Positions 1-21,981 of a DNA stretch of 64,000 nucleotides are shown here, piece by piece (position 1 is the stretch's first letter; each line of letters begins with the position of its first letter). The position numbers were made by a program, and so were the translations under genes. The stretch spans positions 558,001-622,000 of the forward strand of contig NZ_CP054491.1 of NCBI RefSeq assembly GCF_013343005.1. Direction: 5' to 3'. Origin of the DNA: Candidatus Reidiella endopervernicosa (GTDB lineage: Bacteria > Pseudomonadota > Gammaproteobacteria > GCF-013343005). A model generated the notes under the pieces. That model searched no databases. It was given only the letters and a program-made list of their open reading frames with translations, and was not told the DNA's origin.

Positions 1-238
1 CCCAAGCAAACAGCAAAACTTAACGCGACCATTTATGCCTACGGCGCCCCGACCGTCCTGCGTTCGTTGCGTAATCACCTCTTCGCGGCTCTACACAACT
101 CCTCAGTGACTCTACGCCGACATAAAGCCGCTGCTGCATCTTCTTCGTCGTCCGCTCGCGCTCTCAACTACGAATAGGCAGACGGCGTCGACTATCGGGG
201 ACTAACCGCCCTCACTTCGCTCTCCATGGCGGTCAGCG
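1..238 (-). mobile_element. Repeat E, copy 1 (cut by window edge)
   Basis: Reverse-oriented copy; its outer part lies before position 1. The visible end is GGCGGTCAGCG, the reverse complement of the constant left end. It belongs to the subfamily with a GTTTG/CAAAC right-hand stem (copies 1, 3, 5, 6). It has the same orientation as the tpsA gene it interrupts. The tpsA frame between 239 and 1661 is open up to it. It has a one-base gap relative to other copies in the CCCTCAGTGAC segment. Confidence 0.93.
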
Positions 239-1661
239 GAGGAAGGTGACCTGACCGGCGGGAGCGGCGATGGAGATAGCCCCTTCGGCGCGTGCTTCAT
301 ACATTGTGATACTGCCACTGTCTGCCTGTATCAGCAGCGAGGCGACTCCGAGATTGGTCGGATTCCAGAGGTTGCGCTCCGGTGTCTCGACACTGACGTT
401 GTAACCGATGGTCGCACCGATATCGATATCACCACCGGTCGATGTAATCGAGACCGCACCAGTGGTCTCGATCTGGTCGAGCGAAACATCGTTGCCAGCA
501 GCGAGGGTGAAATTCTGCGTTAGCTGCAGTGGATCGATCGTCGCGTCGGCATCAGCCAGGCTGTAGGAGACGTGAGTATCGGGAAGGATGATGTCGTGTG
601 CCGCCGTCACGCTCATACCGCCGGTCCCCTCAATCCAGATCATATTCTCTACCAGCACATCACTCACCGCTGAGGGCGTCCAGCTCGGGCTCCAGCTCGG
701 CACTGCCACACCCGCCACCGTCACACCGTCCAGCGTCGCGTAGGGGTCGTATCCGGCGGAGAGGGTGAGACTGTCGGCCTGCACCGAGATGTCGACCACC
801 GCTGTAACACTGGTATCGGGGAACTCGACCAGCGAGGCGGTGGTACCGATGGTCACATCGCGCCCCGCCATGGCGATCACATCTCCCACCAGCACCATCC
901 CACCGAGATCGGTATCACGACCGGCATAGAACTCACCATTGCCAACCTGACCACCCATGACGATATCGTCCTTGGCGATCACCATCAGATGGCTTGGATT
1001 GGAGACTGCCAGATTGGTCACCGAGCCGTTGGCAGAGAGGGCGTCGATGTTATTGGCATGTCCGGTTGTGAAGTCTGTAATTCCGCTATATCCCGCCAGA
1101 TCGACCTCATCGGGATAACCAAATTTCGAAATAATCGGATCATCGAACTCATCGTAGCCAAGAATGCCCGAGCGGCTCTCCTGTATCTGTCCCCCACTAA
1201 TCTCACCTGCGGTGGAGAGGATAGTCAGATTGCCACCGGTGCGAACCACAGAGGGGGTGATATCGCCCACCGCCTGCAGCCAGATATTGCCCTCGCGGGC
1301 ATCGATATCACTGATCGCATAGGTATTGAGCAGAATATCGGCTTCGGGATCTATGGTCTGATTTTGCGCAATCCCCCCCGCACCCGCATAGATAGAGATA
1401 TCACCGCTGTCGGTATAGATGCGCTGGTCGACCTGTACCGCATCTCCGGCACTGATCATCACCTCACCGGTGGTATCGGGGATGGTCTGCGCAACGGTAA
1501 CCGAACCGTTGGTTGAGACCAGATTGAGTAGCCCGGTGGTGAAGTAACCGGTGAGGATATCGTCATTAACACCCGCCGGTGCGGGGCCATTGTTCAGGTC
1601 GTTGTAGGAGGCGATGGTCAGCGTTCCGCTACCGGCATTAACCTGCAGAGCGTCAGGCAGG

Positions 1662-1945
1662 CGCTGACCGCCATGGATAGCGAAGCGAAGGCGGTTAGTC
1701 CCCGATAGTCGACGCCGTCTGCCTATTCGTAGTTGAGAGCGCGAGCGAACGACGAAGAAGATGCAGCAGCGGCTTTATGTCGGCGTAGAGTCACTGAGGG
1801 AGTTGTGTAGAGCCGCGAAGAGGTGATTACGCAACGAACGCAGGACGTCGGGGCGCCGTAGGCATAAACGGTCGCGTTAAGTATTTGCCGCTTGCTTGGG
1901 CTTGGATGCCCAAAACAAGCTTCCGCAAAAATAGCGACTCCCCGA
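1662..1945 (+). mobile_element. Repeat E, copy 2
   Basis: A 284-bp copy beginning CGCTGACCGCC and ending ACTCCCCGA, opposite in orientation to tpsA. Flanks are GCAGG on the left and GTGATAG on the right, with no target-site duplication. Removing 1662-1945 joins tpsA in frame: CTIT|LPDALQV. Hairpins visible here: left CTGACCGCC (1664-1672) with GGCGGTTAG (1690-1698); central GCGGCTTTA (1769-1777) with TAGAGCCGC (1808-1816); right nested TTTGC/GCTTG/TTGGGC (1884-1901) with GCCCAA/CAAGC/GCAAA (1908-1929). A base is missing in GGACGTCGG relative to most copies. Confidence 0.95.
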
Positions 1946-2682
1946 GTGATAGTGCAGGGTGGTGTGGCACAGTTATCGGCCAGTGCCAGTGTGGTGCCGG
2001 CGTAGAGTCCCAGTGCGGCATCGTAACTGGCGATATGGTCGTTGATAGTGATGTCATTACCCGAGAGCAGGGTGATGGTGCCACCGCTGATCGCATCGCG
2101 ACCGATGAAGCTGTCAGTGGTGCGATCCCAGGGACCGACCTTATCGTTAACCACAATCGAACCACCCGCCATCATCACCAGATCGTTACCGGTGGTGGTA
2201 TTGGCAACCGGCTGGTTGATGGTGATATCGCCGGCCGCTGTGACGGCGGTATCGCCCACCGTCTCGTAGATCGGCACATCAATGGTCACACTGCCTCCCG
2301 TCGACTCTAGCAGCAGGGTACCGCTGGTCACCAGCGAACCTGGGGAGAGGCTGGCACCACTGCTCACCGAAATAGTGCCGCTGCCGCTGCGCAGCTGCTT
2401 AGTCAGCGGTGCACCGTAGCTGTCGAGTCCATCGGCCGCCTGCACCACACTGCCCGCAGCAGCCACTGTGATTGCGCCATCGTCTGTAATAACGTGCTCA
2501 TTGATCGTTACATCGCCGCCAGCGGTAAGAACTACCTGGCCACCGCTGATCCCACCACTGCCATCGATCTGCTCATTAACGACGATATCGTCATCAGCCG
2601 TGGCGCTAAGTGACGAGCCGTTAGAGAGATTGACCACAGCGGCATTGAAGATCACATCATCGGCTGCCACCAGAATTACCGT

Positions 2683-2966
2683 CGCTGACCGCCATGGATA
2701 GCGAAGCGAAGGCGGTTAGTCCGCGATAGTCGACGCCGTCTGCATATTCGTAGTTGAGAGCGCGAGCGGACGACGAAGAAGATGCAGCAGCGGCTTTATG
2801 TCGGCGTAGAGTCACTGAGGGAGTTGTGTAGAGCCGCGAAGAGGTGATTACGCAACGTACGCAGGACGGTCGGGGCGCCGCAGGCATAAACGGTCGCGTT
2901 AAGTTTTTGCTGTTTGCTTGGGCTTGGATGCCCAAAACAAACTTTCGCAAAAATAGCGACTCCCCG
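2683..2966 (+). mobile_element. Repeat E, copy 3 (frame exception)
   Basis: A 284-bp copy up to CCCCG, with a purine G at 2967. It belongs to the GTTTG/CAAAC subfamily and is opposite to tpsA. It is the only complete copy where the frame returns when the element is removed without its final purine: removing 2683-2966 gives ASNG|TVILVAADD, whereas also removing 2967 creates a stop. A single-base insertion or deletion in the host or at the junction, or a sequencing error, would explain this. Confidence 0.93.
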
Positions 2967-4235
2967 GCCGTTGCTGGCACTGATCGCCTCATCGATTGTG
3001 ACCGAGCCACCGCTGGAGGTGAGCGTCAGGGTATTGGCCGTAATAAAGGGAGCGTTGATTAGTCCAGCTCCGGTGGTCACCGCAATCGGTGCGGTGCCAC
3101 TGTAGACCCCCTGTCCCGATGCCACATTGACCGTACCGGCGCTGGCGTTGAGATTCACTGCACCGTTATTGGTAACGATGTAATTATTGAGATTGATATC
3201 GTTACCGGCATTAAGGGTGATACCTCCCCCTGCGTAGAGACCTCGGCCATCGATCGCCGCATCGACATCGATGTCGATATCGGCCTGTAGGGTAGTACTA
3301 GTCCCGGAGCGCAGTACGTAGTTGATCACCGCCGCCTCTTCAAGACCGACGGTAAAGTTGGTCGGATCGAGTAGTAGCGTTCCCGCCTCGCCGTTTTCGG
3401 CACCAGCATCAACCTGACCTCGGAAGCTTAGCTGCTGCTTGCCTGAGACCTCGACCTCTCCACCATTCCCAGATTCACTACCGCCACGGGCGGAGATTGA
3501 GCCCGAAAAGTCAGTCACACCATCGGCCCAGACAACCACCTCACCACCGTCACCTCGATCTGTGCCGTCGGCGCGTAACCTGGAGCCCTCAGAGACCGTG
3601 GTCGTCGTGGCGCGATAACCATCGCCGCCCTGGTAGTCACCTCCGAGATGCATGACACCTCCCCCGGCACTACCGCTTACATCCAGCTCCGATTCGGCCG
3701 CAATGAAAACGTGCTCTCCGCGCACATCGATAGCGCCACCGCTCTGTCCAGATTGGGTGCCACGTGCACTCAACTCACCAGCAACCGTCACACTTCCGCC
3801 CCGACCCAGCAGCACGATACGCCCCCCATGCTGTTCAACCGTATCGGCCCGCACCACACCACTGATATTGATCAACTGATCGAGCACCCCCTTGCCGCTG
3901 GCTGCACTCATAAATAGCGCCTCGCCACCCGCCACCTCGACCAGACCGCTTTGATCAACGCGTGCGGTGATGGGCTGACCCTCAGCATCAAACAGCTGTG
4001 CCAACTGCTGCTCGTCTACCGCAAAGTTAATCAGCTGATCGCCATAGAGATCGATGGTAAAACGCTCACCCGCCGCGAGCGCAACCCGGCCGAGGCGCGC
4101 TGTAATCGTACCGCTGTTCTCAACCTGCGGTGCTACAAGCGCCACCAGTCCACCCTCGGCAGCAGTGATGGTACCGAGGTTAACCACCGCACCACTGGCC
4201 ACACCGGGCTGGTTAAAATCGAGGTTACCCGCCAT

Positions 4236-4518
4236 CGCTGACCGCCATGGAGAGCGAAGTGAGGGCGGTTAGTCCCCGATAGTCGACGCCGTCTGCCTAT
4301 TCGTAGTTGAGGCGCGAGCGGACGACGAAGAAGATGCAGCAGCGGCTTTATGTCGGCGTAGAGTCACTGAGGGAGTTGTGTAGAGCCGCGAAGAGGTGAT
4401 TACGCAGCGTACGCAGGACGGTCGGGGCGCCGTAGGCATAAACGGTCGTGTTAAGTATTTGCCGCTTGCTTGGGCTTGGATGCCCAAAACATGCTTCCGC
4501 AAAATAGCGACTCCCCGG
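4236..4518 (+). mobile_element. Repeat E, copy 4
   Basis: A 283-bp copy opposite to tpsA, in the TPS domain. Flanks are GCCAT and AAAATC, with no duplication. Precise removal gives SDF|MAGNLDF, matching the usual DF-x-AGN motif of TPS domains, so the boundary is supported by family knowledge and not only by frame. The right-hand stem has CATGC facing GCTTG, a T:T mismatch shared with copies 7, 8 and 9. Confidence 0.95.
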
Positions 4519-4965
4519 AAAATCGCTGTTACCGATATTGGCGGTGGTTGCGACCAACGCACCCACATCGATATTCGCCCCCTCACCGATCACCACACCG
4601 TTGGGGTTGAGCAGGTAGAGCTGGCCGTTGGCATCGACCCGTCCCATGATCACACTGATCTGGTCACTGTTGACCCTGTTAAGGGTTGCTGAATCACTGC
4701 CTGGCTGGGCGAAACGAACCGCCTCATCCACGCCGACATCAAAGCTGCGCCAGTCGATGACGGCTCGACTACTCTGTTGTTCGATCAGGGTCAGGCTGCC
4801 GTTCTGTGTGATGGACGCACTTCCCGCCTGCACCTCGCCGCCGCTTGGCGCCGCCTGGGCGGTGGTAACCGTAATCAACGTTGCCGCGAGCATCGTTACG
4901 ACTCGCTGACAGAATGTGTTTCGATTGCCTGGGTTCAGACTCATCTTTATCTCCAATGACCGCAA

Positions 4966-6920
4966 TCAGAATCTGGCTGAGAGGGTGAAATAAGCGCGAG
5001 CATCGTCACTGCCTTCAGCCGCCACCGGATGGGATATTGGCTGCGCCAGCTCAACTGCTGCCGATACGTGGCCAAATAGGCTCAAACGCAGTCCAAGGCC
5101 TGCAGAGGTGATGGTTGTATCGTCATCAAGCGGCGTCTCATTGCGCTGCCAGACGCGCCCCGCATCGACGTAACCGTAGAGGGTATAGGGCTGCGGCGTA
5201 GAGAAGGGGAGGTGGTTGCTGTAACGAAGCTCCAGCTTGGCGGCCAGGCCGTGATCACCAACCGCCTCGGAGGGGTCGTATCCACGCCCGAACGCCTCAC
5301 CGCCATAACCAAATAGTTCAGGCGCCAGTAGGTCCCGGGAGTCGCTATTTTTGCGAAAGTTTGTTTTGGGCATCAAGCCCAAGCAAACAGCAAAAACTTC
5401 ACGCGACCGTTTATGCCTTCGGCGCCCCGACGTCCTGCGTACGTTGCGTAATCACCTCTTCGCGGCTCTACACAACTCCCTCAGTGACTCTACGCCGACA
5501 TAAAGCCGCTGCTGCATCTTCTTCGTCGTCCGCTCGCGCTCTCAACTACGAATAGGCAGACGGCGTCGACTATCGGGGACTAACCGCCCTCACTTCGCTC
5601 TCCATGGCGGTCAGCGATCGAAGGCGTACTGACCATTGACGGTGGCCAGTAGACTCCAGTGCGATGAGAGGGGTTGTAGACGTGCCAGATAGAGCGTGAG
5701 TTTGGAAAAATCGACACTGCCATCGGCGCGCGAGAGCAACAGATCGCCATTTTCCGATGAACCAAGGCCGTTGAGTCCCTGGCTAACCTCAACATCGATC
5801 AGGTTGGTCGCACCGCTACTATCGATACGATCATAGGTGAGCCCCAGCCGCGCCACACGCAGCTGCTCATCGATCATCTTGGCGCCAAAGAGTCGAGTCG
5901 TACCGTTGTGCATCGTCAGGCCTGTACGTAGATAGAGGTTCTGCTTTCGACTGCGAATCATCGGGTGGCTTACGATGAGATTGGCGCTATCAGACTCAAC
6001 CTCCTGCTCGAGCGGGATAAAACTGAGATTCTCTGGCTCAGCACGCAGCGCACTGTAATCGATCTTTATCTTGGTGCCCTCACGACCGAGCTGCTGTTCA
6101 TGACTGATAGAGGCGTATTGCATCTCCTGCCCCTCCGCCTGTGCCACCATCAGCGCAGTACGTTCAAACAGGCTCAACAGGTTATTGAGCTTCAGATCGG
6201 CCACTACCCGTAACGGCCCCAGCGCCTCTCCCCCACGATTGTCGAAAGCCACCCCACCCGATACGGTGTCACGTTCAAAATGAATGGTCAGATCGGCGGC
6301 ACCAAATTCGCTCTTCGAGGCCGAAAGGGTGGCACGTGCAAACATGCCGGGTAGGTCGTTGATCAACAGCATGTAGCGTTCAAGCGCATCAGCGGTCTTT
6401 CACGACGAATGCGCTCGGCGTAGTCCGCGACCATGTCGCGGCTATCGTATCGATCACCAACGATACGCACCTGCGAGATATAACCTTCGATTGCCTGAAG
6501 CCTGGCTACCCCCTTCTCGATCGACTGTGCTGGCACAACGACCTGTGAAAGGGTGTAACCATCGCTGCGGTATTTTGTGGTCAGGGTGTTGGCGAGCCGG
6601 TAGAGCTCCAAGAGTGTTACTTCACGATTGAGTAGCGGGCCAAGATAGGTCTCAAGTTCACCCTGCGGATAGGCACTAAAACCCTCCAGCTCAATCGCAT
6701 TCAGACTAAAACGGATCTCGGCCGCACCCGGTGGGGCACGCTCCAGCTCCTGTGCTCGCTCAATCCCCTCACTACGCTGGCGCAATTGCGGCTGCGTCTG
6801 GAACTGTTTTTCAATCTGTCCGGGGAGCACGGTACCACTCGGTGGGGCTGCCTGTGTGGGCATGGTGAGTCCAAGAGTGCCGACCAGAAACAGATAAGTT
6901 GCGGCGTTCTTTCCATACAT
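4966..6920 (-). pseudogene. Interrupted TpsB/ShlB-FhaC-type outer-membrane transporter
   Basis: Outer-membrane beta-barrel that exports the TpsA adhesin encoded 21 bases downstream. The order is signal peptide (MYGKNAAT to TQA), POTRA domains (ELEGFSAYPQGEL; DGYTLSQVVVPAQ), then the barrel with GGEAFGRGYD and a C-terminal phenylalanine (LSARF). Two lesions are visible. First, a frame break near 6396-6400: one additional A in the run encoding GAAAAGACC would give RREKTADALERYMLL, the expected POTRA-barrel linker. Second, repeat E copy 5 (5335-5616), whose removal gives YAFD|DLLAPELFGYGG. With both corrected the product is about 557 residues, normal for the family. The homopolymer position makes a sequencing error as likely as a real frameshift. 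Confidence 0.87.
5335..5616 (-). mobile_element. Repeat E, copy 5
   Basis: A 282-bp copy in the same direction as tpsB. Element-direction flanks are TTCGAT on the left and GACCTAC on the right, with no duplication. The right end reads CTCCCGG, one C fewer than other copies. Removal restores AFD|DLLAPE in the barrel. It belongs to the GTTTG/CAAAC subfamily. Confidence 0.94.
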
Positions 6921-7043
6921 TATCTTTATATTCCCACTACTGTGTATCAGACGAGCTTAGTCCAGCGCATTCCCTCTTGCCAACGACCCAGAACTCCAAC
7001 ATGATTTATAAAAATAGTCGGGTAATAACCAGCAGGTGAATCG

Positions 7044-7433
7044 ATGAGCAACGATGACAATGAGCAGTGGCGTGACAAGCTGAGTCGCGATCAGTACCGC
7101 GTCTGCAGGGAGAAGGGGACCGAACCCGCCTTCAGCGGAGCCTACTGGGACAACAAGTCGGAAGGGATCTACCGCTGTGCCTGCTGTAATACCGAGCTGT
7201 TCCGCTCCGATACCAAGTACGACTCCGGTAGCGGCTGGCCGAGCTTCTGGGACGCGGTCGACCCTACTCGCGTCGAACAGCACTTTGATACCAGCCACGG
7301 CATGCGCCGGGTCGAGATCACCTGTGCCAACTGTGGCTCACACCTCGGTCATCTGTTCGAGGATGGCCCGCAACCGACCGGACAGCGCTACTGCGTCAAC
7401 TCACTCTCACTCGAGTTTGAAGAAGACGAGTGA
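7044..7433 (+). CDS. msrB: Peptide-methionine (R)-S-oxide reductase MsrB
   Basis: Reduces methionine-R-sulfoxide in oxidised proteins in the cytoplasm. It has 129 residues, the usual size for a free-standing MsrB. Zinc ligands are two CxxC pairs, C45/C48 and C94/C97. The catalytic cysteine is C117 in RYCVNSLSL. The early resolving cysteine found in some MsrB proteins is absent from the SGSGWPSF segment, so another cysteine or thioredoxin would act directly. ATG at 7044 follows AGCAGGTGA. It is divergent from tpsB and 58 bases before lepB. Confidence 0.96.
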   Translation: MSNDDNEQWRDKLSRDQYRVCREKGTEPAFSGAYWDNKSEGIYRCACCNTELFRSDTKYDSGSGWPSFWDAVDPTRVEQHFDTSHGMRRVEITCANCGSHLGHLFEDGPQPTGQRYCVNSLSLEFEEDE

Positions 7434-7491
7434 ACCAAACTCCCATCATTGAGTCTGAACAGCCAGTTATAACCGGGGATGTAAATCAACC

Positions 7492-8190
7492 GTGAACAAC
7501 CTGATCGACAAACTTAAAAAGCCCGGACTTCCACGTAGCATCGCCGAACTGGCACTGCTGGCGCTGGTCATCTTCGCCTCACGCTCGGTGTTTGGCGACT
7601 GGAACTATGTCCCCTCCGGCTCGATGAAACCGACCCTGGTCGAGGGTGACATGATCTATGTCGATAAACTCGCCTACGATCTCAAGATTCCCTTTACTAC
7701 CCTCCATCTGGCGGAGTGGGACGATCCCATCCGGGGCGAGATTGTTGTCTTCTACTCTCCCAAGGATGACATCCGCATGGTCAAGCGGGTGATCGGCGAA
7801 CCGGGTGACACCATTCTGATGCGTGATAATCGACTCATCATCAATGGCCAGCCACTTAACTACTCCGCACCCGATCAGCAGACCGTCTCGGTACTTAACG
7901 ATGAGGAGCAGCAGAGTTTTCTCTTTGCCACCGAACAGCTCCCTGGTGTCGATCACGCTGTGATGCGACAACCCACACCAACGCCCCAGAGCAACTTTGG
8001 CCCGGTGACGATTCCAGCAGGAGAGTACCTGTTGTTGGGTGATAATCGAGACCGCAGTGGCGACTCACGCTTTTTCGGTCTGGTGGAGCGTGAACGCATC
8101 CTCGGCCAGGCGACACGGGTGCTCATCTCCTGGAATGGCGATAACTTCTACCTGCCTCGCGCAGGACGTATTAACCACCTGTTGCAATAA
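7492..8190 (+). CDS. lepB: Signal peptidase I
   Basis: Membrane serine protease that removes signal peptides outside the inner membrane. A single N-terminal membrane segment spans about residues 16-34, followed by the SGSMKP box with catalytic Ser44, the general base Lys98 in RMVKRVIG, and the late GDNRDRSGDSR box. It has 232 residues and only one membrane segment, so it is smaller than the two-span E. coli enzyme. The start is a GTG, with GGGG about 14 bases upstream, which is rather far. A housekeeping lepB could lie elsewhere; this could be a second copy. Confidence 0.9.
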   Translation: MNNLIDKLKKPGLPRSIAELALLALVIFASRSVFGDWNYVPSGSMKPTLVEGDMIYVDKLAYDLKIPFTTLHLAEWDDPIRGEIVVFYSPKDDIRMVKRVIGEPGDTILMRDNRLIINGQPLNYSAPDQQTVSVLNDEEQQSFLFATEQLPGVDHAVMRQPTPTPQSNFGPVTIPAGEYLLLGDNRDRSGDSRFFGLVERERILGQATRVLISWNGDNFYLPRAGRINHLLQ

Positions 8191-8210
8191 CTCTCACCTA
8201 TCTCCAACAG

Positions 8211-8256
8211 TTGACATCACCAGCAGATGATTCTACAGTTCGAAATATGTCGAACT
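8211..8256 (+). promoter_or_regulatory. arsR promoter with operator palindrome over the start codon
   Basis: TTGACA at 8211-8216, a 17-base spacer, then TACAGT at 8234-8239 form a credible sigma-70 promoter. A perfect inverted repeat AGTTCGA-(6)-TCGAACT (8237-8243 and 8250-8256) overlaps the -10 and encloses the ATG at 8247. The predicted transcript start falls at or just before this ATG, so the mRNA may be leaderless. The palindrome is the natural autorepression site for the ArsR protein. Confidence 0.65.
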
Positions 8257-8561
8257 ATCAAAACGATAATCTTGTGCAGATGGCGGAGCAGTTTAAGGCA
8301 CTGGCCAATCCACACCGTCTACAGATCTTTCTCAGCCTTTCGACCTGCTGCGCGCCGGGTACGGTCTGCAGCAGTGAGGAGGCGGTACGGAGTGTCGGTG
8401 TTATCGGCGAGGGTCTCGATATCGCCCCTTCGACCCTTTCACACCACATTAAAGAGCTCAATCGTGCCGGCCTGATTGAGATGGAACGACAGGGTAAACA
8501 GGTCAACTGCTGGGTCGATCCGGCCACGCTCGAACAGTTGAGCCACTTCTTCAAATCGTAA
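8247..8561 (+). CDS. arsR: ArsR-family transcriptional repressor
   Basis: Winged-helix metalloid-sensing repressor of about 104 residues. Recognition-helix region is around APSTLSHHIKELNRAGL. A cysteine cluster (STCCAPGTVC) in the early helices is the likely As(III) site. I place the start at the ATG at 8247 (MSNYQND), not the in-frame TTG at 8211, because that TTG is part of the -35 box. It is followed after 22 bases by arsM, so the two probably form an arsenic-responsive operon. The sensor specificity is inferred from arsM. Confidence 0.88.
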   Translation: MSNYQNDNLVQMAEQFKALANPHRLQIFLSLSTCCAPGTVCSSEEAVRSVGVIGEGLDIAPSTLSHHIKELNRAGLIEMERQGKQVNCWVDPATLEQLSHFFKS

Positions 8562-8583
8562 CCCGAAGTCACGAGGAACTAAC

Positions 8584-9441
8584 ATGAGTCAGGAAGAGAA
8601 TAGCTGCTGCGAACCCACCGAGGTAGCAGTCTCGATCGGTGCCAGGCAGGCCGACGATATCCGCCAGCAGGTGCGCGACAGCTACGCCAAGGTGGCACAG
8701 GCCGATAACGCTGGCGAGGCGTGCGGCGTCGGCAGCAGCTGCTGCGGGGTCTCTGATGACGATCAGATCAACACCCTGATCTCGACCCGCCTCGGTTACT
8801 CTTATGAGGATTTGGACGCGGTACCCGAGGGTGCCGACATGGGGATCGGTTGCGGAAACCCGCGCGCCATCGCCTCACTCCAGCCGGGTGAGGTGGTGGT
8901 CGATCTTGGTAGTGGCGGTGGCTTCGACGCCTTCCTCGCTGCGGCCGAGGTTGGAACCACGGGTCGTGTCATTGGTGTTGATATGACCCCCGACATGATC
9001 AGCAAGTCACGCACCAATGCGGAGAAGGGACAATTCGAGCAGGTTGAGTTTCGCCTCGGTGAGATTGAAAATCTGCCGGTCGCCAATGATACGGTTGATG
9101 TCATTATCTCCAACTGTGTGATCAACCTCTCTCCCAACAAGGGGCGCGTCTTTGAAGAGGCCTTCCGTGTTCTTAAACCGGGCGGTCGTCTGGCCATCTC
9201 CGATGTCGTCGCCACCGTGGAGCTACCCGATGAGATGCGTGACGACCTCGCGCTCTACTCCGGCTGTATGGCGGGTGCCTCTCACATCGGTGAACTGGAG
9301 CAACACATGGCCGATGCTGGTTTTTCTAAAATCGCTGTTGCACCGAAAGATGATTCACGTGACTTCATTAAGGACTGGGCACCCGGTCGTGGCGTTGAGG
9401 ATTTTGTCGTCTCTGCCACCATCGAGGCGGTCAAACCTTAA
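8584..9441 (+). CDS. arsM: Arsenite S-adenosylmethionine methyltransferase
   Basis: Methylates As(III) with S-adenosylmethionine in the cytoplasm. The SAM-binding motif VVDLGSGGGFDA begins near residue 105. The three conserved arsenite-binding cysteines are seen in GIGCGNP (C90), SNCVINL and YSGCMAG. The N-terminus has additional cysteine pairs (SCCE, SSCCG). The length, 285 residues, is normal. It is preceded by the ArsR regulator and followed by a strong hairpin at 9447-9473. Confidence 0.95.
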   Translation: MSQEENSCCEPTEVAVSIGARQADDIRQQVRDSYAKVAQADNAGEACGVGSSCCGVSDDDQINTLISTRLGYSYEDLDAVPEGADMGIGCGNPRAIASLQPGEVVVDLGSGGGFDAFLAAAEVGTTGRVIGVDMTPDMISKSRTNAEKGQFEQVEFRLGEIENLPVANDTVDVIISNCVINLSPNKGRVFEEAFRVLKPGGRLAISDVVATVELPDEMRDDLALYSGCMAGASHIGELEQHMADAGFSKIAVAPKDDSRDFIKDWAPGRGVEDFVVSATIEAVKP

Positions 9442-9446
9442 GCGCT

Positions 9447-9473
9447 GGTGCTGTCCCGTCATGGGACAGCACC
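9447..9473 (+). terminator. Hairpin after arsM
   Basis: Perfect 11-bp inverted repeat GGTGCTGTCCC / GGGACAGCACC with a 5-base loop. No U-tract follows, so it may be a weak terminator or an mRNA 3'-end stabiliser. The remaining bases to 9604 hold only the region upstream of mscS. Confidence 0.6.
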
Positions 9474-9656
9474 GATCCAATCGTTCGATCATTACTACCC
9501 GCTTTACCTCTAAAACCATCTCTCTGCTAGATATCAGACGCTGTTATCAACTACATTGGTAGTTACACCCCCAATAACTAGAGCCAAACAATAGGGGAGC
9601 AGTGATGCAGATCTCTCTCTGGACAAGCCTCGTTGATGCAGTAGCAGCCATTCATC

Positions 9657-9939
9657 CGCTGACCGCCATGGAGGCGAAGTGAGGGCGGTTAGTCCCCGAT
9701 AGTCGACGCCGTCTGCCTATTCGTAGTTGAGAGCGCGAGCGAACGACGGAGAAGATGCAGCAACGGCTTTATGTCGGCGTAGAGTCACTGAGGGAGTTGT
9801 GTAGAGCCGCGAAGAGGTGATTACGCAACGTACGCAGGACGGTCGGGGCGCCGCAGGCATAAACGGTCGCGTGAAGTTTTTGCTGTTTGCTTGGGCTTGG
9901 ATGCCCAAAACAAACTTTCGCAAAATAGCGACTCCCCGG
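9657..9939 (+). mobile_element. Repeat E, copy 6
   Basis: A 283-bp copy in the same direction as mscS, just 52 bases after its start codon. Flanks are TTCATC and TCGGCT, with no duplication. Removal gives a continuous frame, AAIH|LGYQLAA, from the ATG at 9605. It belongs to the GTTTG/CAAAC subfamily. Its left loop lacks two bases (GGAGGCG for GGAGAGCG). Confidence 0.95.
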
Positions 9940-11000
9940 TCGGCTATCAGCTAGCCGCAATCGTTATCATCTCGCTACTTTTAATACGCACAGCGGCAAT
10001 TACACATCGTCAGATACTGCACATCCTCGGTTTCTACCTGCTGGGTCTGATCGGCTATCTCATTACCATCCTCCTGCTCAATAGTGGAGTCATAGACGAG
10101 GGGACGATTCCCCAACATATCGCCATCCTGGTCATGGGTTTGGCAGCAATTCGTCTCGCAGGTCTGATTCTCTTCCACCGGCTTCTGCCACTGATACAGA
10201 TCCACGCACCAACGATACTTCAGGATATTCTGGTCACCATCGCCTATCTGCTCTGGTGCATGGTGCGCCTGTCAGAGATTGGGCTCGATTTCTCCAGCAT
10301 TGTCACCACCTCGGCGGTAATCACCGCAGTACTCGCCTTCTCGCTGCAGGACACCCTCGGCAATATTCTCGGCGGTACCGCACTGCAACTCGATGATTCG
10401 ATCCACATCGGGGACTGGGTCAAGGTTGATGATGCAGTCGGTCGAGTGGTCGATATCTGCTGGCGCTCGACCAGTATCGAGACACGTAACTGGGAGACGG
10501 TGGTCATTCCCAACAGTATCCTGATGAAGGGGAAGTTCACCATCCTTGGCCGGCGTCAGGGTGAACCGATACAGCTGCGCCGCTGGATCAACTTCAATGT
10601 AGAATTCAACGTTACGCCAGCACTGGTTATCCACACGGTAGAGTCAGCCATGCATCAGGCCGGTATTCCCAATGTCGCTGCACAACCTGCAGCAAACTGT
10701 GTAGCGATGAGTATAGAGGGTAGTACCATCAACTATGCGCTGCGCTACTGGCTGACCGATCTCGCCGTCGACGATCCCACCGACTCGGCCGTGAGGACCC
10801 ATATCTACGCGGCGCTGAAACGCGCCAGTATCGAGTTCGCCCTGCCGCAACAGAGCCTCCACCTCTACAAGGAGAGTCATAAACTTCGCGCCAAGGAGCA
10901 CTCTCGTGATATCAAACAGCGTATAGCTCTACTCGAACGTGTTGCGCTGTTTGCCACTCTCGACGAGGAGGCGCGTCGAGCCATTGCCGAGCAGCTCACC

Positions 11001-11281
11001 TCGGGGAGTCGCTATTTTTGCGGAAGCATGTTTTGGGCATCCAAGCCCAGCAAGCGGCAAATACTTAACGCGACCGTTTATGCCTACGGCGCCCCGACGT
11101 CCTGCGTTCGTTGCGTAATCACCTCTTCGCGGCTCTACACAACTCCCTCACTGACTCTACGCCGACATAAAGCCGCTGCTGCATCTTCTCCGTCGTTCGC
11201 TCACGCTCAACTACGAATATGCAGACGGCGTCGACTATCGGGGACTAACCGCCCTCACTTCGCTCTCCATGGCGGTCAGCG
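11001..11281 (-). mobile_element. Repeat E, copy 7
   Basis: A 281-bp copy opposite to mscS, between the channel and the cyclic-nucleotide domain. Removal joins CTCACC to TACGCA, giving EQLTYAPF, which is the family sequence at that point with no residue gained or lost. With copy 6 it forms an inverted pair around a 1061-bp coding segment. Confidence 0.95.
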
Positions 11282-11714
11282 TACGCACCCTTTGTTGAAG
11301 GTGATGTGATCACCCAGCAGGGCACGGTCGCCAACTGGCTCTATATCCTGATCGAGGGTCAGGCGGAGGTGGTGCTCAGCTCGGAGGGCGAGCAGCGGCA
11401 GGTCAATATCATCAACGGGGGGGAGGCAGGCAGCTTCTTTGGTGAGATGGGTCTACTCACCGGTGCACCGCGCGCCGCCAACGTGATCGCACTGACCGAT
11501 GTGGAGTGTTACCGCCTCGACAAGGAGGCGTTCGAGCAGGTGATCAAGGCACGCCCGGTGATCGCCGAGGAGATCTCGCGCACTATGGCGAAACGCGATG
11601 CCGATCTGAGCATGGCAAAGAATGATCTCGACCGGGAGACACGCGACCGTCTGGCTGCCGCGCAGCACGACGAGCTACTGGTGAAGATCAGACACTTCTT
11701 CGGACTCTGAGTTG

Positions 11715-15325: not shown

Positions 15326-15460
15326 TTATGCACACAGACGGGCGCGGCCCTTGGCACGACGTGCAGAGATAACCTTACGGCCGTTCTTGGTGCTCATACG
15401 TGCACGAAAACCGTGGACGCGCTTACGCTTGAGGTTGCTTGGCTGGAATGTACGTTTCAT
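15326..15460 (-). CDS. rpmH: 50S ribosomal protein L34
   Basis: A 44-residue highly basic protein starting [14 protein letters not shown] and ending RARLCA. The gene is too short for many ORF tables but is unmistakable by sequence and position between dnaA and rnpA. Its promoter is visible at 15502-15530. Confidence 0.98.
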
Positions 15461-15563: not shown

Positions 15564-15572
15564 TGTGGATAA
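15564..15572 (-). promoter_or_regulatory. DnaA box upstream of dnaA
   Basis: TGTGGATAA, the reverse complement of the perfect DnaA box TTATCCACA, sits about 70 bases before the dnaA start. This suits dnaA autoregulation. Confidence 0.75.
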
Positions 15573-17004: not shown

Positions 17005-17230
17005 TGTTAATTAACGGTGGGTAAAGTTGTGGATAAAATTGGGTCCTAAGTTATCCACAACTGATTAACAGCTCACACCCAGGATACATACGGCTCATAC
17101 ATTGAAAATAGTGTTGTAGCTAATTGAATTATAACGAATATTACGAGTTATCCCGAAAAATAGGGCTGCTTAATAGTAATAGTAAAGTAATAAATAAAAA
17201 GATTATTTTTTATATAGATGGGATGGATAT
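17005..17230. other. Putative oriC between dnaA and dnaN
   Basis: This gene-free 226-bp stretch has perfect DnaA boxes in both orientations: TGTGGATAA at 17028-17036 and TTATCCACA at 17051-17059. A degenerate box TTATCCCGA lies at 17148-17156. An AT-rich tract at about 17160-17220 follows, suited to unwinding. Within it, TAATAGTAATAGTAAAGTAA is a triplet-like run resembling DnaA-trio elements. Position and boxes support an origin; it is small, and the 15564 box may also contribute. Confidence 0.75.
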
Positions 17231-18331
17231 ATGAAATTCAAGGTACAGCGTGAAGCGATCCTCAAACCGCTCCAGGCCGTTAGTGGTGTTGTCGAAAGAC
17301 GCCAGACCCTACCGGTTCTCTCTAATGTTCTGATCTCTGCAGGACAGGATGGCATCACCTTTACAGCAACCGATCTTGAGGTTGAGCTGCAGGCGATCAG
17401 TAGTGTTGCTGTCGATGCTCCAGGAGAGACGACTGTACCCGCACGTAAATTCATTGATATCTGCAGGGCACTGCCAGAGAGTGCTGAGATCAGTTTCTCT
17501 CTGGAAGATGACCGGGTGATTGTAAAATCTGGCAAGAGTCGATTCACACTATCTACCCTTCCTGCCAGTGATTTTCCAAGTGTCGATGCGATAAAAAATG
17601 TCAATAAGTTTGAGTTGCCACAGACTGAAGTTCGTCGACTGATAGAACGTACTCACTTTGCCATGGCTCAGCAGGATGTTCGTTACTACCTCAATGGCCT
17701 TATGCTACAGCTGACATCAGAACGTCTTCGTGCGGTTGCTACCGATGGACATCGACTCGCATTGAGTGATGTTACTGCGACCATCGAGATCACTGATGAT
17801 CAGCAGGTCATAGTGCCTCGTAAAGGTGTTCAGGAGCTACTACGACTGCTTGAATCGAATGATGAGATGGCAGAGATTCAGGTTGGAAGTAATCACATTA
17901 AGGTCACCCTTCCTGGACTTGGATTTACCTCAAAACTGATCGATGGTCGCTTCCCCGATTATGAACGTGTAATCCCCAGTGGCTGTGATAAAGAGATTAA
18001 GGCTGATCGAGAAACTCTCAAACAAGCTCTCACTCGCACCTCTATTCTCTCCAATGAGAAGTACCGTGGAGTACGCCTGCACCTGTTACCCAATGCACTA
18101 GAGATTCTGGCTCACAATCCAGAGCAGGAGCAGGCCGAGGATGAGATAGAGGTGGAGTACGATGGACAGGAGCTGGAGATCGGTTTTAATGTCAGCTACA
18201 TGATCGACGCACTCAATGTAATCCAGAATGACAATGTGAAGATTAGTCTCTCCGATGCCAATAGTAGCTGTCTGATTGAGGCGACCGAAGGTGATACATC
18301 ACGCTACGTTGTGATGCCGATGCGACTCTAG
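17231..18331 (+). CDS. dnaN: DNA polymerase III beta sliding clamp
   Basis: Ring-shaped processivity clamp. It has 366 residues and starts MKFKVQREAILKPLQAVSGV. The YYLNGLML and SNEKYRGVRL segments are typical of domains 2 and 3, and the C-terminal YVVMPMRL is conserved. It is preceded by GGATGGA and lies between the origin and recF. Confidence 0.98.
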   Translation: MKFKVQREAILKPLQAVSGVVERRQTLPVLSNVLISAGQDGITFTATDLEVELQAISSVAVDAPGETTVPARKFIDICRALPESAEISFSLEDDRVIVKSGKSRFTLSTLPASDFPSVDAIKNVNKFELPQTEVRRLIERTHFAMAQQDVRYYLNGLMLQLTSERLRAVATDGHRLALSDVTATIEITDDQQVIVPRKGVQELLRLLESNDEMAEIQVGSNHIKVTLPGLGFTSKLIDGRFPDYERVIPSGCDKEIKADRETLKQALTRTSILSNEKYRGVRLHLLPNALEILAHNPEQEQAEDEIEVEYDGQELEIGFNVSYMIDALNVIQNDNVKISLSDANSSCLIEATEGDTSRYVVMPMRL

Positions 18332-18459: not shown

Positions 18460-19533
18460 ATGAGTCTTTCTCACTTCAAAGTCTCTAATTTTCGCAATAT
18501 TTCTACTGCGGATATTCGACCCTCAAATAATCTCAATCTCATTCATGGTAGTAATGGTAGTGGTAAGACGAGCCTGCTCGAGTCGATCTACTACCTCAGT
18601 CGGGTCAGTTCATTTAAGACAACACGACCGTTACAACTGATCAAAAGAGGAGAAGAGCGTTTTACTCTCTTTGGTGAGATCAGTACGGATGAGGGCACTA
18701 TTCCAATTGGTCTGCAGCGGAGCAGTAGTGAACTACAGATGCGTGTTGCGGGTAACAATGCAAACTCCATCTCAGAGGTTGCTTCACAGATACCACTTCT
18801 GATCATTAATCCCGATAGTCACGAGCTGTTGGAGCAGGGTCCAACACAGCGTCGACAATTTATCGATTGGGGCGTGTTCCACGTGGAACATAGTTTCTAT
18901 CCCATATGGAGTCGTTATAAAAGGGCACTAAAGCAGCGTAATGCTGCACTCCGTTCTGGCGATTCGAAGAGTGCATCAGTGTGGAATTCAGAGCTGGTGA
19001 GCTGTGCGAACGAGATTGATCGACAGAGGATTAATTACATTGATCGGTTAAAACCACTACTCCCAGAGTTTGCTGCGCCCCTGGTGGGTTCCGAAACATT
19101 AGAGCTTAGTTACCAACCTGGTTGGGATAAGAGTGAAGCTTATAGTGAGCAACTGGAACGATCACTAGTCCGCGATAGTGAATTGGGTCACACAAGGTAT
19201 GGGCCACACCGTGCAGATTTAATTATCAAAATGGGCGGTCAACGTGTCCAGACCCATATATCGAGGGGACAACAGAAGTTGCTCGTCTGTGCCTTGAGAA
19301 TGGCTCAGGTTCAACTACTCGCTGAATCAACAGACAAACGGAGTCTGTTATTAATAGATGATTTACCAGCTGAGTTGGATAGATATCACCGGGATGAGTT
19401 GATGAAACGTTTGGCCAATCTACCAGCACAGCTATTCATCTCAGCAATCGAACCAGAGCTGCTCAATAGCAGCTACTGGGAGAGTTATAGTGTGTTCCAC
19501 GTGGAACATGGTTCGGTAGAAGAGGTGGTATAA
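18460..19533 (+). CDS. recF: DNA recombination and repair protein RecF
   Basis: SMC-like ATPase loading RecA at gaps. Walker A GSNGSGKTS is near residue 30, signature region HISRGQQKLL, Walker B LLLIDDLPAELD. It has 357 residues. No good ribosome-binding site precedes the ATG at 18460. The coding sequence contains two identical 16-bp parS palindromes, so the protein has FHVEH twice, once at about residues 140-144 and once just before the C-terminus. Confidence 0.97.
   Translation: MSLSHFKVSNFRNISTADIRPSNNLNLIHGSNGSGKTSLLESIYYLSRVSSFKTTRPLQLIKRGEERFTLFGEISTDEGTIPIGLQRSSSELQMRVAGNNANSISEVASQIPLLIINPDSHELLEQGPTQRRQFIDWGVFHVEHSFYPIWSRYKRALKQRNAALRSGDSKSASVWNSELVSCANEIDRQRINYIDRLKPLLPEFAAPLVGSETLELSYQPGWDKSEAYSEQLERSLVRDSELGHTRYGPHRADLIIKMGGQRVQTHISRGQQKLLVCALRMAQVQLLAESTDKRSLLLIDDLPAELDRYHRDELMKRLANLPAQLFISAIEPELLNSSYWESYSVFHVEHGSVEEVV
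18875..18890. promoter_or_regulatory. parS site 1 (inside recF)
   Basis: Perfect 16-bp palindrome TGTTCCACGTGGAACA, the ParB-binding parS sequence of the Pseudomonas type. It is about 2 kb from the putative oriC, where ParB loading is expected. Confidence 0.88.
19493..19508. promoter_or_regulatory. parS site 2 (inside recF)
   Basis: Second identical TGTTCCACGTGGAACA palindrome, 618 bp from the first, in the last codons of recF. The coding strand reads FHVEH at both places, so the amino acids follow the DNA site. Confidence 0.88.

Positions 19534-21981
<2,448 letters not shown>

Follow-up and report, generated by a model that had tools for sequence, protein, structure and literature searches.

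The recF gene of the window, the 64-kb stretch of DNA that was analysed, carries two identical copies of a 16-bp perfect palindrome, and these are almost certainly parS sites. The reading preferred here, at a probability of roughly 0.93, is that they represent the parS (centromere-like) sites of the chromosome, carried in the recF reading frame beside oriC. Across the class sample of Gammaproteobacteria, constraint on the DNA maintains sites at the same two places of recF.

The two palindromes in the window

The first-pass annotation had described two identical 16-bp palindromes inside the recF frame, spelling FHVEH twice. Both are found exactly where it placed them, with 0 mismatches (Table 1), and each 16-mer encodes FHVEH in frame, at RecF residues 140-144 and 346-350. 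Both are 16-bp palindromes of the parS type (TGTTYCACGTGRAACA type).

Table 1. Coordinates of the candidate parS sites and of the neighbouring genes in the window.
Feature	Position	Strand	Description
parS site 1 (candidate)	18875-18890	.	TGTTCCACGTGGAACA, perfect palindrome, codons V139-FHVE-H144 of RecF
parS site 2 (candidate)	19493-19508	.	TGTTCCACGTGGAACA, same perfect palindrome, codons V345-FHVE-H350 of RecF
dnaA	15643..17004	+	TIGR00362 615.7 bits
dnaA-dnaN gap	17005..17230	.	DnaA-box-like sequences at 17028 and 17051; one of two candidate oriC gaps
dnaN	17231..18331	+	TIGR00663 376.7 bits
recF	18460..19533	+	ORF of 357 aa; NCBIfam TIGR00611 367.8 bits, cut-off 172; hosts both sites
gyrB	19555..21981	+	TIGR01059 1024 bits

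Within the 64-kb window, no further match to the 16-mer at ≤3 mismatches is present beyond the two sites. Shuffled windows contain a mean of 0.26 matches at the same limit, and two or more matches occur in 3 of 100 shuffles. The complete contig of 3,446,950 bases has no third place within 2 mismatches of the 16-mer, and the backwards control gives one. In a single-gene test on the window recF, with protein and codons kept, both places are perfect to TGTTYCACGTGRAACA in 20 of 20,000 synonymous shuffles. A chance origin of the palindromes was rejected on the basis of the window shuffles, the genome-wide scan, and the synonymous shuffles.

The host gene is identified as recF by the TIGR00611 equivalog, which is matched above its cut-off, and by the dnaN-gyrB neighbourhood; family model matches give the gene order dnaA-dnaN-recF-gyrB. 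DnaA-box-like sequences (TTATNCACA) at 15326, 15564, 17028, and 17051 flank dnaA, and another is located at 10627. The cumulative GC skew has its minimum at about 15-17 kb (stretch 8-28 kb examined). Both sites lie within the origin domain that the gene cluster, the DnaA boxes, and the skew change delimit. The earlier placement of the sites, less than 3 kb from the origin, is about right: the distance is 1.8-2.4 kb to the dnaA-dnaN boxes and 3.3-3.9 kb to the box at 15564. In a structure model of the window RecF (mean pLDDT 95.6), site 1 covers the end of a predicted helix (128-142) and the following loop; site 2 falls in a predicted strand (343-349) of a C-terminal beta-hairpin.

The side of the window beyond mnmE (about 1-11.7 kb) carries other ORFs. 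A repeat family of about 250-270 bp occupies at least seven places in both orientations at 15-11299, and many of its pairs are 92-100% alike. The family provides several ORFs with a common tail in their reading frame (...FGHPSPSKRQILNATVYAYGAPT...). By eye, the repeat-tailed ORFs look haemagglutinin-like and the one at 9891-11309 looks MscS-like.

ParB and ParA of the genome

The 3.447-Mb genome has a single ParB match (TIGR00180 above cut-off, 1.6e-60), and the domains ParB_N, HTH_ParB, and ParB_C all lie above the Pfam cut-off. A ParA-type ATPase (AAA_31) adjoins parB, with an NCBIfam ParA_partition match that falls under its cut-off. A cognate three-domain ParB and a ParA-type ATPase thus coexist with the sites in the same genome. 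The parAB genes are about 77 kb from recF/oriC, outside the window (G000:C1:498719-499612). The single ParB with its adjoining ParA, together with the lack of any other place within 2 mismatches of the 16-mer, supports the initial description of the palindromes as a segregation centre.

The palindromes might instead be bound by a Noc-type protein, by a regulator that acts on the dnaN-recF-gyrB operon, or by some other factor that is not the ParB of chromosome segregation. The ParB of the genome also matches the Noc model, with 223.9 bits, below the cut-off of 315. An excess of ParB in P. aeruginosa is reported to reduce the expression of genes around parS1-4 (PMC5521831), and a transcriptional effect is therefore possible as well. 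However, parS2 and parS3 of P. aeruginosa, which ParB of that species is described as binding with the highest affinity (PMC4368675), have exactly this 16-mer. The 16-mer is also one base from the general parS consensus TGTTNCACGTGAAACA, which is bound by chromosomal ParB near oriC according to the account in PMC7022226. Furthermore, none of the 17 genomes without chromosomal-type ParB described below has a perfect site, yet site 2 is within one mismatch in three of them. Binding by such another factor is very improbable as an explanation of the window sites.

Constraint on the DNA and constraint on the protein

The test of synonymous positions used genes chosen by protein alone (FHV[EK], n=233 per site). 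The synonymous choices that parS requires are G as the third base before Phe, CAC, GTG, and GAA or AAA. All four choices are present together at site 1 in 226/233 genes, where 7.6 are expected from the codon usage of each gene, and at site 2 in 220/233 genes, where 10.2 are expected. Among 347 testable RecF columns, the nine under the strongest third-base constraint comprise eight from the two sites and the last codon. Whole-gene synonymous shuffles of 290 genes give a mean of 43.8 (maximum 57) at site 1 and of 68.7 (maximum 84) at site 2, compared with 226 and 218 observed, respectively. The synonymous test and the shuffles of the 290 genes demonstrate selection on the DNA sequence itself.

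The alternation of Glu and Lys corresponds to the R of parS, and at each site 232 of the 233 genes use GAA or AAA as the codon. Genes within 2 mismatches have 200 GAA, 39 AAA, and 1 GAG at site 1 (n=240), and 176 GAA, 57 AAA, and 1 GAG at site 2 (n=234). On a RecF tree from which the site columns are excluded, Glu/Lys changes occur at least 24 times at site 1 and at least 39 times at site 2. The position just ahead of Phe in site 2 is occupied by Met, Val, Leu, Arg, Trp, Thr, or others, with at least 95 changes on the tree, and 135 of its 137 degenerate codons have G as the third base. The amino-acid variation at the sites reads as the degeneracy of the DNA site. Covariation across the dyad, in the form of a TTT-Lys pairing, has raw Fisher p values of 2.6e-9 and 6.7e-5. 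When counted on independent pairs, the pairing is supported at site 1 (5.7 vs 0.0, median p 0.03) and unsupported at site 2 (5.1 vs 2.3, median p 0.51).

Where the DNA site is lost, entropy rises from 0.15 to 3.56 bits at V142, from 0.64 to 3.36 at E143, from 0.04 to 3.29 at H347, and from 0.80 to 3.49 at E349; the low values with the site are partly built in, because that group is defined by its DNA, and the informative half of the comparison is the freedom in the no-site group (50 genes for site 1 and 56 for site 2). F140 and G351 are conserved with or without the DNA site. The persistence of F140 after site loss makes it a RecF residue in its own right. A variable stretch of RecF had been expected at the sites; the stretch does vary where the site is lost, but it is nearly invariant where the site is kept. 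The statement that the DNA site shapes the protein holds across the class sample in the synonymous test, the shuffles, and the entropy comparison. Since synonymous positions are fixed and residues vary on site loss, the protein follows the DNA.

The opposite dependence would be that FHVEH is a functional motif of RecF and that the palindrome is a by-product of encoding it twice. D136, W137, G138, and F140, which adjoin or belong to site 1, and G351, which follows site 2, keep most of their conservation regardless of the DNA site, and the neighbourhood is therefore partly constrained by the protein. A motif of this kind predicts that codon choice at the sites resembles that in the rest of recF, but the opposite is found, with synonymous positions fixed far beyond codon usage. 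It is also at odds with the rise in entropy of V142, E143, H347, and E349 from 0.04-0.80 to 3.3-3.6 bits on site loss, and with the solved RecF chain 5z67_A, which has CISVIDK vs GVFHVEH in the window. The palindrome is moreover present in the dnaN-gyrB gap in 22/30 genomes without a usable RecF match. On the synonymous test and the entropy comparison, this motif hypothesis was rejected, and it is hardly credible.

Distribution across Gammaproteobacteria

The sample comprises 370 genomes spread evenly over the GTDB class Gammaproteobacteria, and most of the genome counts are raw, with shared ancestry included. A RecF match is present in 304 genomes, a ParB match in 349, and at least one parS-like site (≤1 mismatch to TGTTYCACGTGRAACA) in 322. 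From the 304 recF genes, 290 were used and 14 were left out. The latter are those with fragmented RecF matches (G075, G092, G139, G143, G177, G191, and G280), those with a RecF E near 1e-3 (G125, G225, G289, and G305), and G224, G247, and G308.

At ≤1 mismatch, site 1 is found in 226/290 recF genes and site 2 in 218/290. Both sites occur in 188/290 genes, at least one in 256/290, and neither in 34/290 at this limit, and both are perfect in 88. The 290 genomes contain 579 parS-like sites genome-wide, including 450 in recF and 444 at the two canonical positions. Every site is within recF in 185 of the 276 genomes that have any site. The spacing between site 1 and site 2 is 597-672 bp, with a median of 621 (208 genes that have both within 2 mismatches).

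A ParB match is present in 31 of the 34 genomes whose recF has neither site, which indicates that recF is not an obligatory host. A site at ≤1 mismatch lies elsewhere in the recF frame in G112, G214, G124, and G304, all of which are scored as having neither site. Because of these four, with the site misaligned in at least G214 and G112, the losses are slightly overstated. Both sites are lost in 24/290 genes at the 2-mismatch limit (raw count), and a link between the two losses on the RecF tree is not significant (2.1 vs 0.3, median p 0.5). Seventeen genomes that were scored as having neither recF site contain a parS-like sequence elsewhere. Examples are the YidC-MnmE gap in three f141 genomes (mismatch near the centre) and a place about 0.8 kb from ParA in L405; mostly there is no origin gene within 1.5 kb, and in G214 and G112 the site is actually in recF.

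Eight sampled genomes have RecF and no ParB match. Both sites are kept at ≤1 mismatch in G343, G363, and G278, and site 2 only in G113 (perfect) and G248 (1 mismatch). These five run counter to a simple link between ParB and the sites. In these genomes parB may be absent from the draft assembly, or the sites may be lingering; G248 is a single contig. An excess of parS-like sites is seen in G289 (8), G099 (12), and G240 (9). At G289:C157:5797-5998, four parS-like sites form a tandem array with 62-bp spacing.

The strict motif of site 1 in recF is found in 45/139 class members (window genome included) vs 1/209 other members of the phylum, with kinship counted by hand. Within the sample, the arrangement can therefore be called a trait of Gammaproteobacteria. 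In the sole match outside the class, L422, the 3-kb locus has no RecF, DnaN, or GyrB match. Another set of 80 named loci was found with peptide seeds including QFIDWGVF, which adjoins site 1, and 52/80 have both sites. This rate is biased because the seeds abut site 1, and it is kept out of the main counts.

Genomes without ParB or without recF

Enterobacteriaceae and Pasteurellaceae are described as having no chromosomal par genes (PMC4368675, PMC3909081). In E. coli K-12, the place of site 1 reads GCTTTCACAACGAACC (GCFHNEPG, 6 mismatches), and the place of site 2 reads TGTTTACCGTGGAAAA (KMFTVEKG, 3 mismatches). TIGR00180 also matches in the E. coli control genome. In addition, 31 further genomes were hand-picked from those without the strict site-1 motif, and RecF is present in 24/31. 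They were picked for the missing site-1 motif, and therefore only the site-2 results are informative there. The 24 genomes with RecF comprise 16 without chromosomal-type ParB (12 f167 and 4 f152) and 8 with it; this split is by E-value and contig, several f167 genomes carry plasmid-like ParB above cut-off, and G505 (f167) has a strong ParB match (5.3e-54) on a second contig.

Site 2 is perfect in 0/17 genomes without chromosomal-type ParB (E. coli included) vs 4/8 with it, and it is within 1 mismatch in 3/17 vs 6/8. The 17 genomes have no perfect site, and their site 1 differs from parS by 5 or more mismatches. For site 2, in the tail of RecF, the 12 Enterobacteriaceae-like f167 genomes have 1-3 mismatches. 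The f167 loci L449, L451, and L453 have the RecF tail MFRVEQG (TGTTCCGCGTGGAACA), one mismatch from parS. These three, which are called free of chromosomal-type ParB, can be read as the least decayed fossils seen.

That the window sites are likewise leftovers, with parAB moved and another, unrecognised locus as the working centromere, agrees with the 77-kb displacement of parAB but is next to incredible, given that both copies are perfect, that no other sequence of the genome is within 2 mismatches, and that the sites are imperfect in those Enterobacteriaceae-like and f152 genomes that were examined and have no chromosomal-type ParB.

A parS without a usable RecF match is present in 39 genomes, of which 37 were searched (the site-rich G099 and G289 were left out); 46 genomes were taken as RecF-less from their absence in the RecF match list. 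A locus was obtained for 30/37, and parS is in the dnaN-gyrB gap, the usual place of recF, in 22/30. The other 8/30 loci have no dnaN or gyrB match within the locus. Two sites (≤2 mismatches) are present in 15/22 of the gap loci, and 13 of these pairs are 25-106 bp apart. They are close together because there is no recF between dnaN and gyrB. L391 has a 665-bp dnaN-gyrB gap with a short frame, VFHVEHGK, around the downstream parS-like site (1 mismatch). This gap is probably a decayed recF in which parS is still kept. In the f31 genomes G030, G158, G251, and G326 (3.4-4.7 Mb), RecF, ParB, and parS are all undetected, the absence of RecF in G158, G251, and G326 being taken from the match list.

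Proposed explanation and wider reading

Established ParABS biology suggests how parS sites in recF would act. Each palindrome would be bound by ParB dimers, which would load as CTP-dependent clamps and then slide into dnaN-recF-gyrB. One partition complex would be formed and moved by ParA acting on the newly copied origin, and the origin region would therefore be segregated first. The two copies, about 0.6 kb apart, may be redundant loading sites. RecF would tolerate the imposed peptides at both sites because one lies where a helix passes into a loop and the other in a strand of the C-terminal hairpin, where residues are variable in site-less RecFs.

For the class as a whole, it is likely that recF has been overprinted with an ancestral element, the centromere, which dictates RecF 141-143 and 346-349 and nearby codons in most of the class. 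Glu/Lys, His/Pro/Gln, and the Val/Met/Leu/Arg/Trp/Thr before Phe would then be degeneracy of the DNA site. The element would outlive recF in the dnaN-gyrB gap, and in Enterobacteriaceae without chromosomal ParB the tail of RecF would still hold it as a fossil (MFTVEKG in E. coli). This would be a clear case of conserved protein residues that mirror a DNA-binding site and not protein function, and conservation of RecF at these residues would therefore be no sign of catalysis or partner binding. The sites would also provide a one-gene centromere marker across much of a bacterial class, and they would explain the frequent position of parS beside dnaN and gyrB. The loss of ParB is a natural experiment in which a protein can be observed as it is freed from DNA-level constraint.

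Comparison with known systems

The main earlier survey of parS is reportedly that of Livny et al. 2007, which PMC5521831 cites. The literature search met native parS in recF in P. aeruginosa only, and that survey may list other species. The class-wide pattern, comprising RecF residues set by the centromere, a centromere that outlasts recF, and a fossil without ParB, was not met in the search, and the same survey may contain part of it. What is new with respect to the literature searched is the breadth across the class and the evidence of DNA-level constraint.

In P. aeruginosa, parS1 and parS2 are reported to lie within recF (PMC3909081, PMC5521831). A strain in which only parS2 is intact is described as equal to the wild type, with parS2 alone being enough for segregation (PMC4368675); a role of parS sites in origin segregation was met in print for this species only. 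A Caulobacter screen for tolerated extra parS insertions is reported to have a hot spot across recF and gyrB (PMC5815017).

The window resembles P. aeruginosa, as described in these sources, in having two intragenic recF parS sites near oriC (PMC4368675, PMC5521831, PMC3909081). Unlike the window sites and parS2/parS3, parS1 of P. aeruginosa ends in GGAACC. P. aeruginosa is described with ten parS sites and with parAB about 7 kb from oriC, whereas the window genome has two, in recF only, and parAB at 77 kb. The general consensus is of the same 16-bp palindromic type, but at position 12 the window sites, both in recF, share G with P. aeruginosa where the consensus has A. The parS sites in the dnaN-gyrB gap of genomes without a usable RecF match share the motif and the neighbourhood of the window, but they are intergenic. 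The window genome is thus a further case of the known recF-parS arrangement, and the class-wide pattern is the interesting part.
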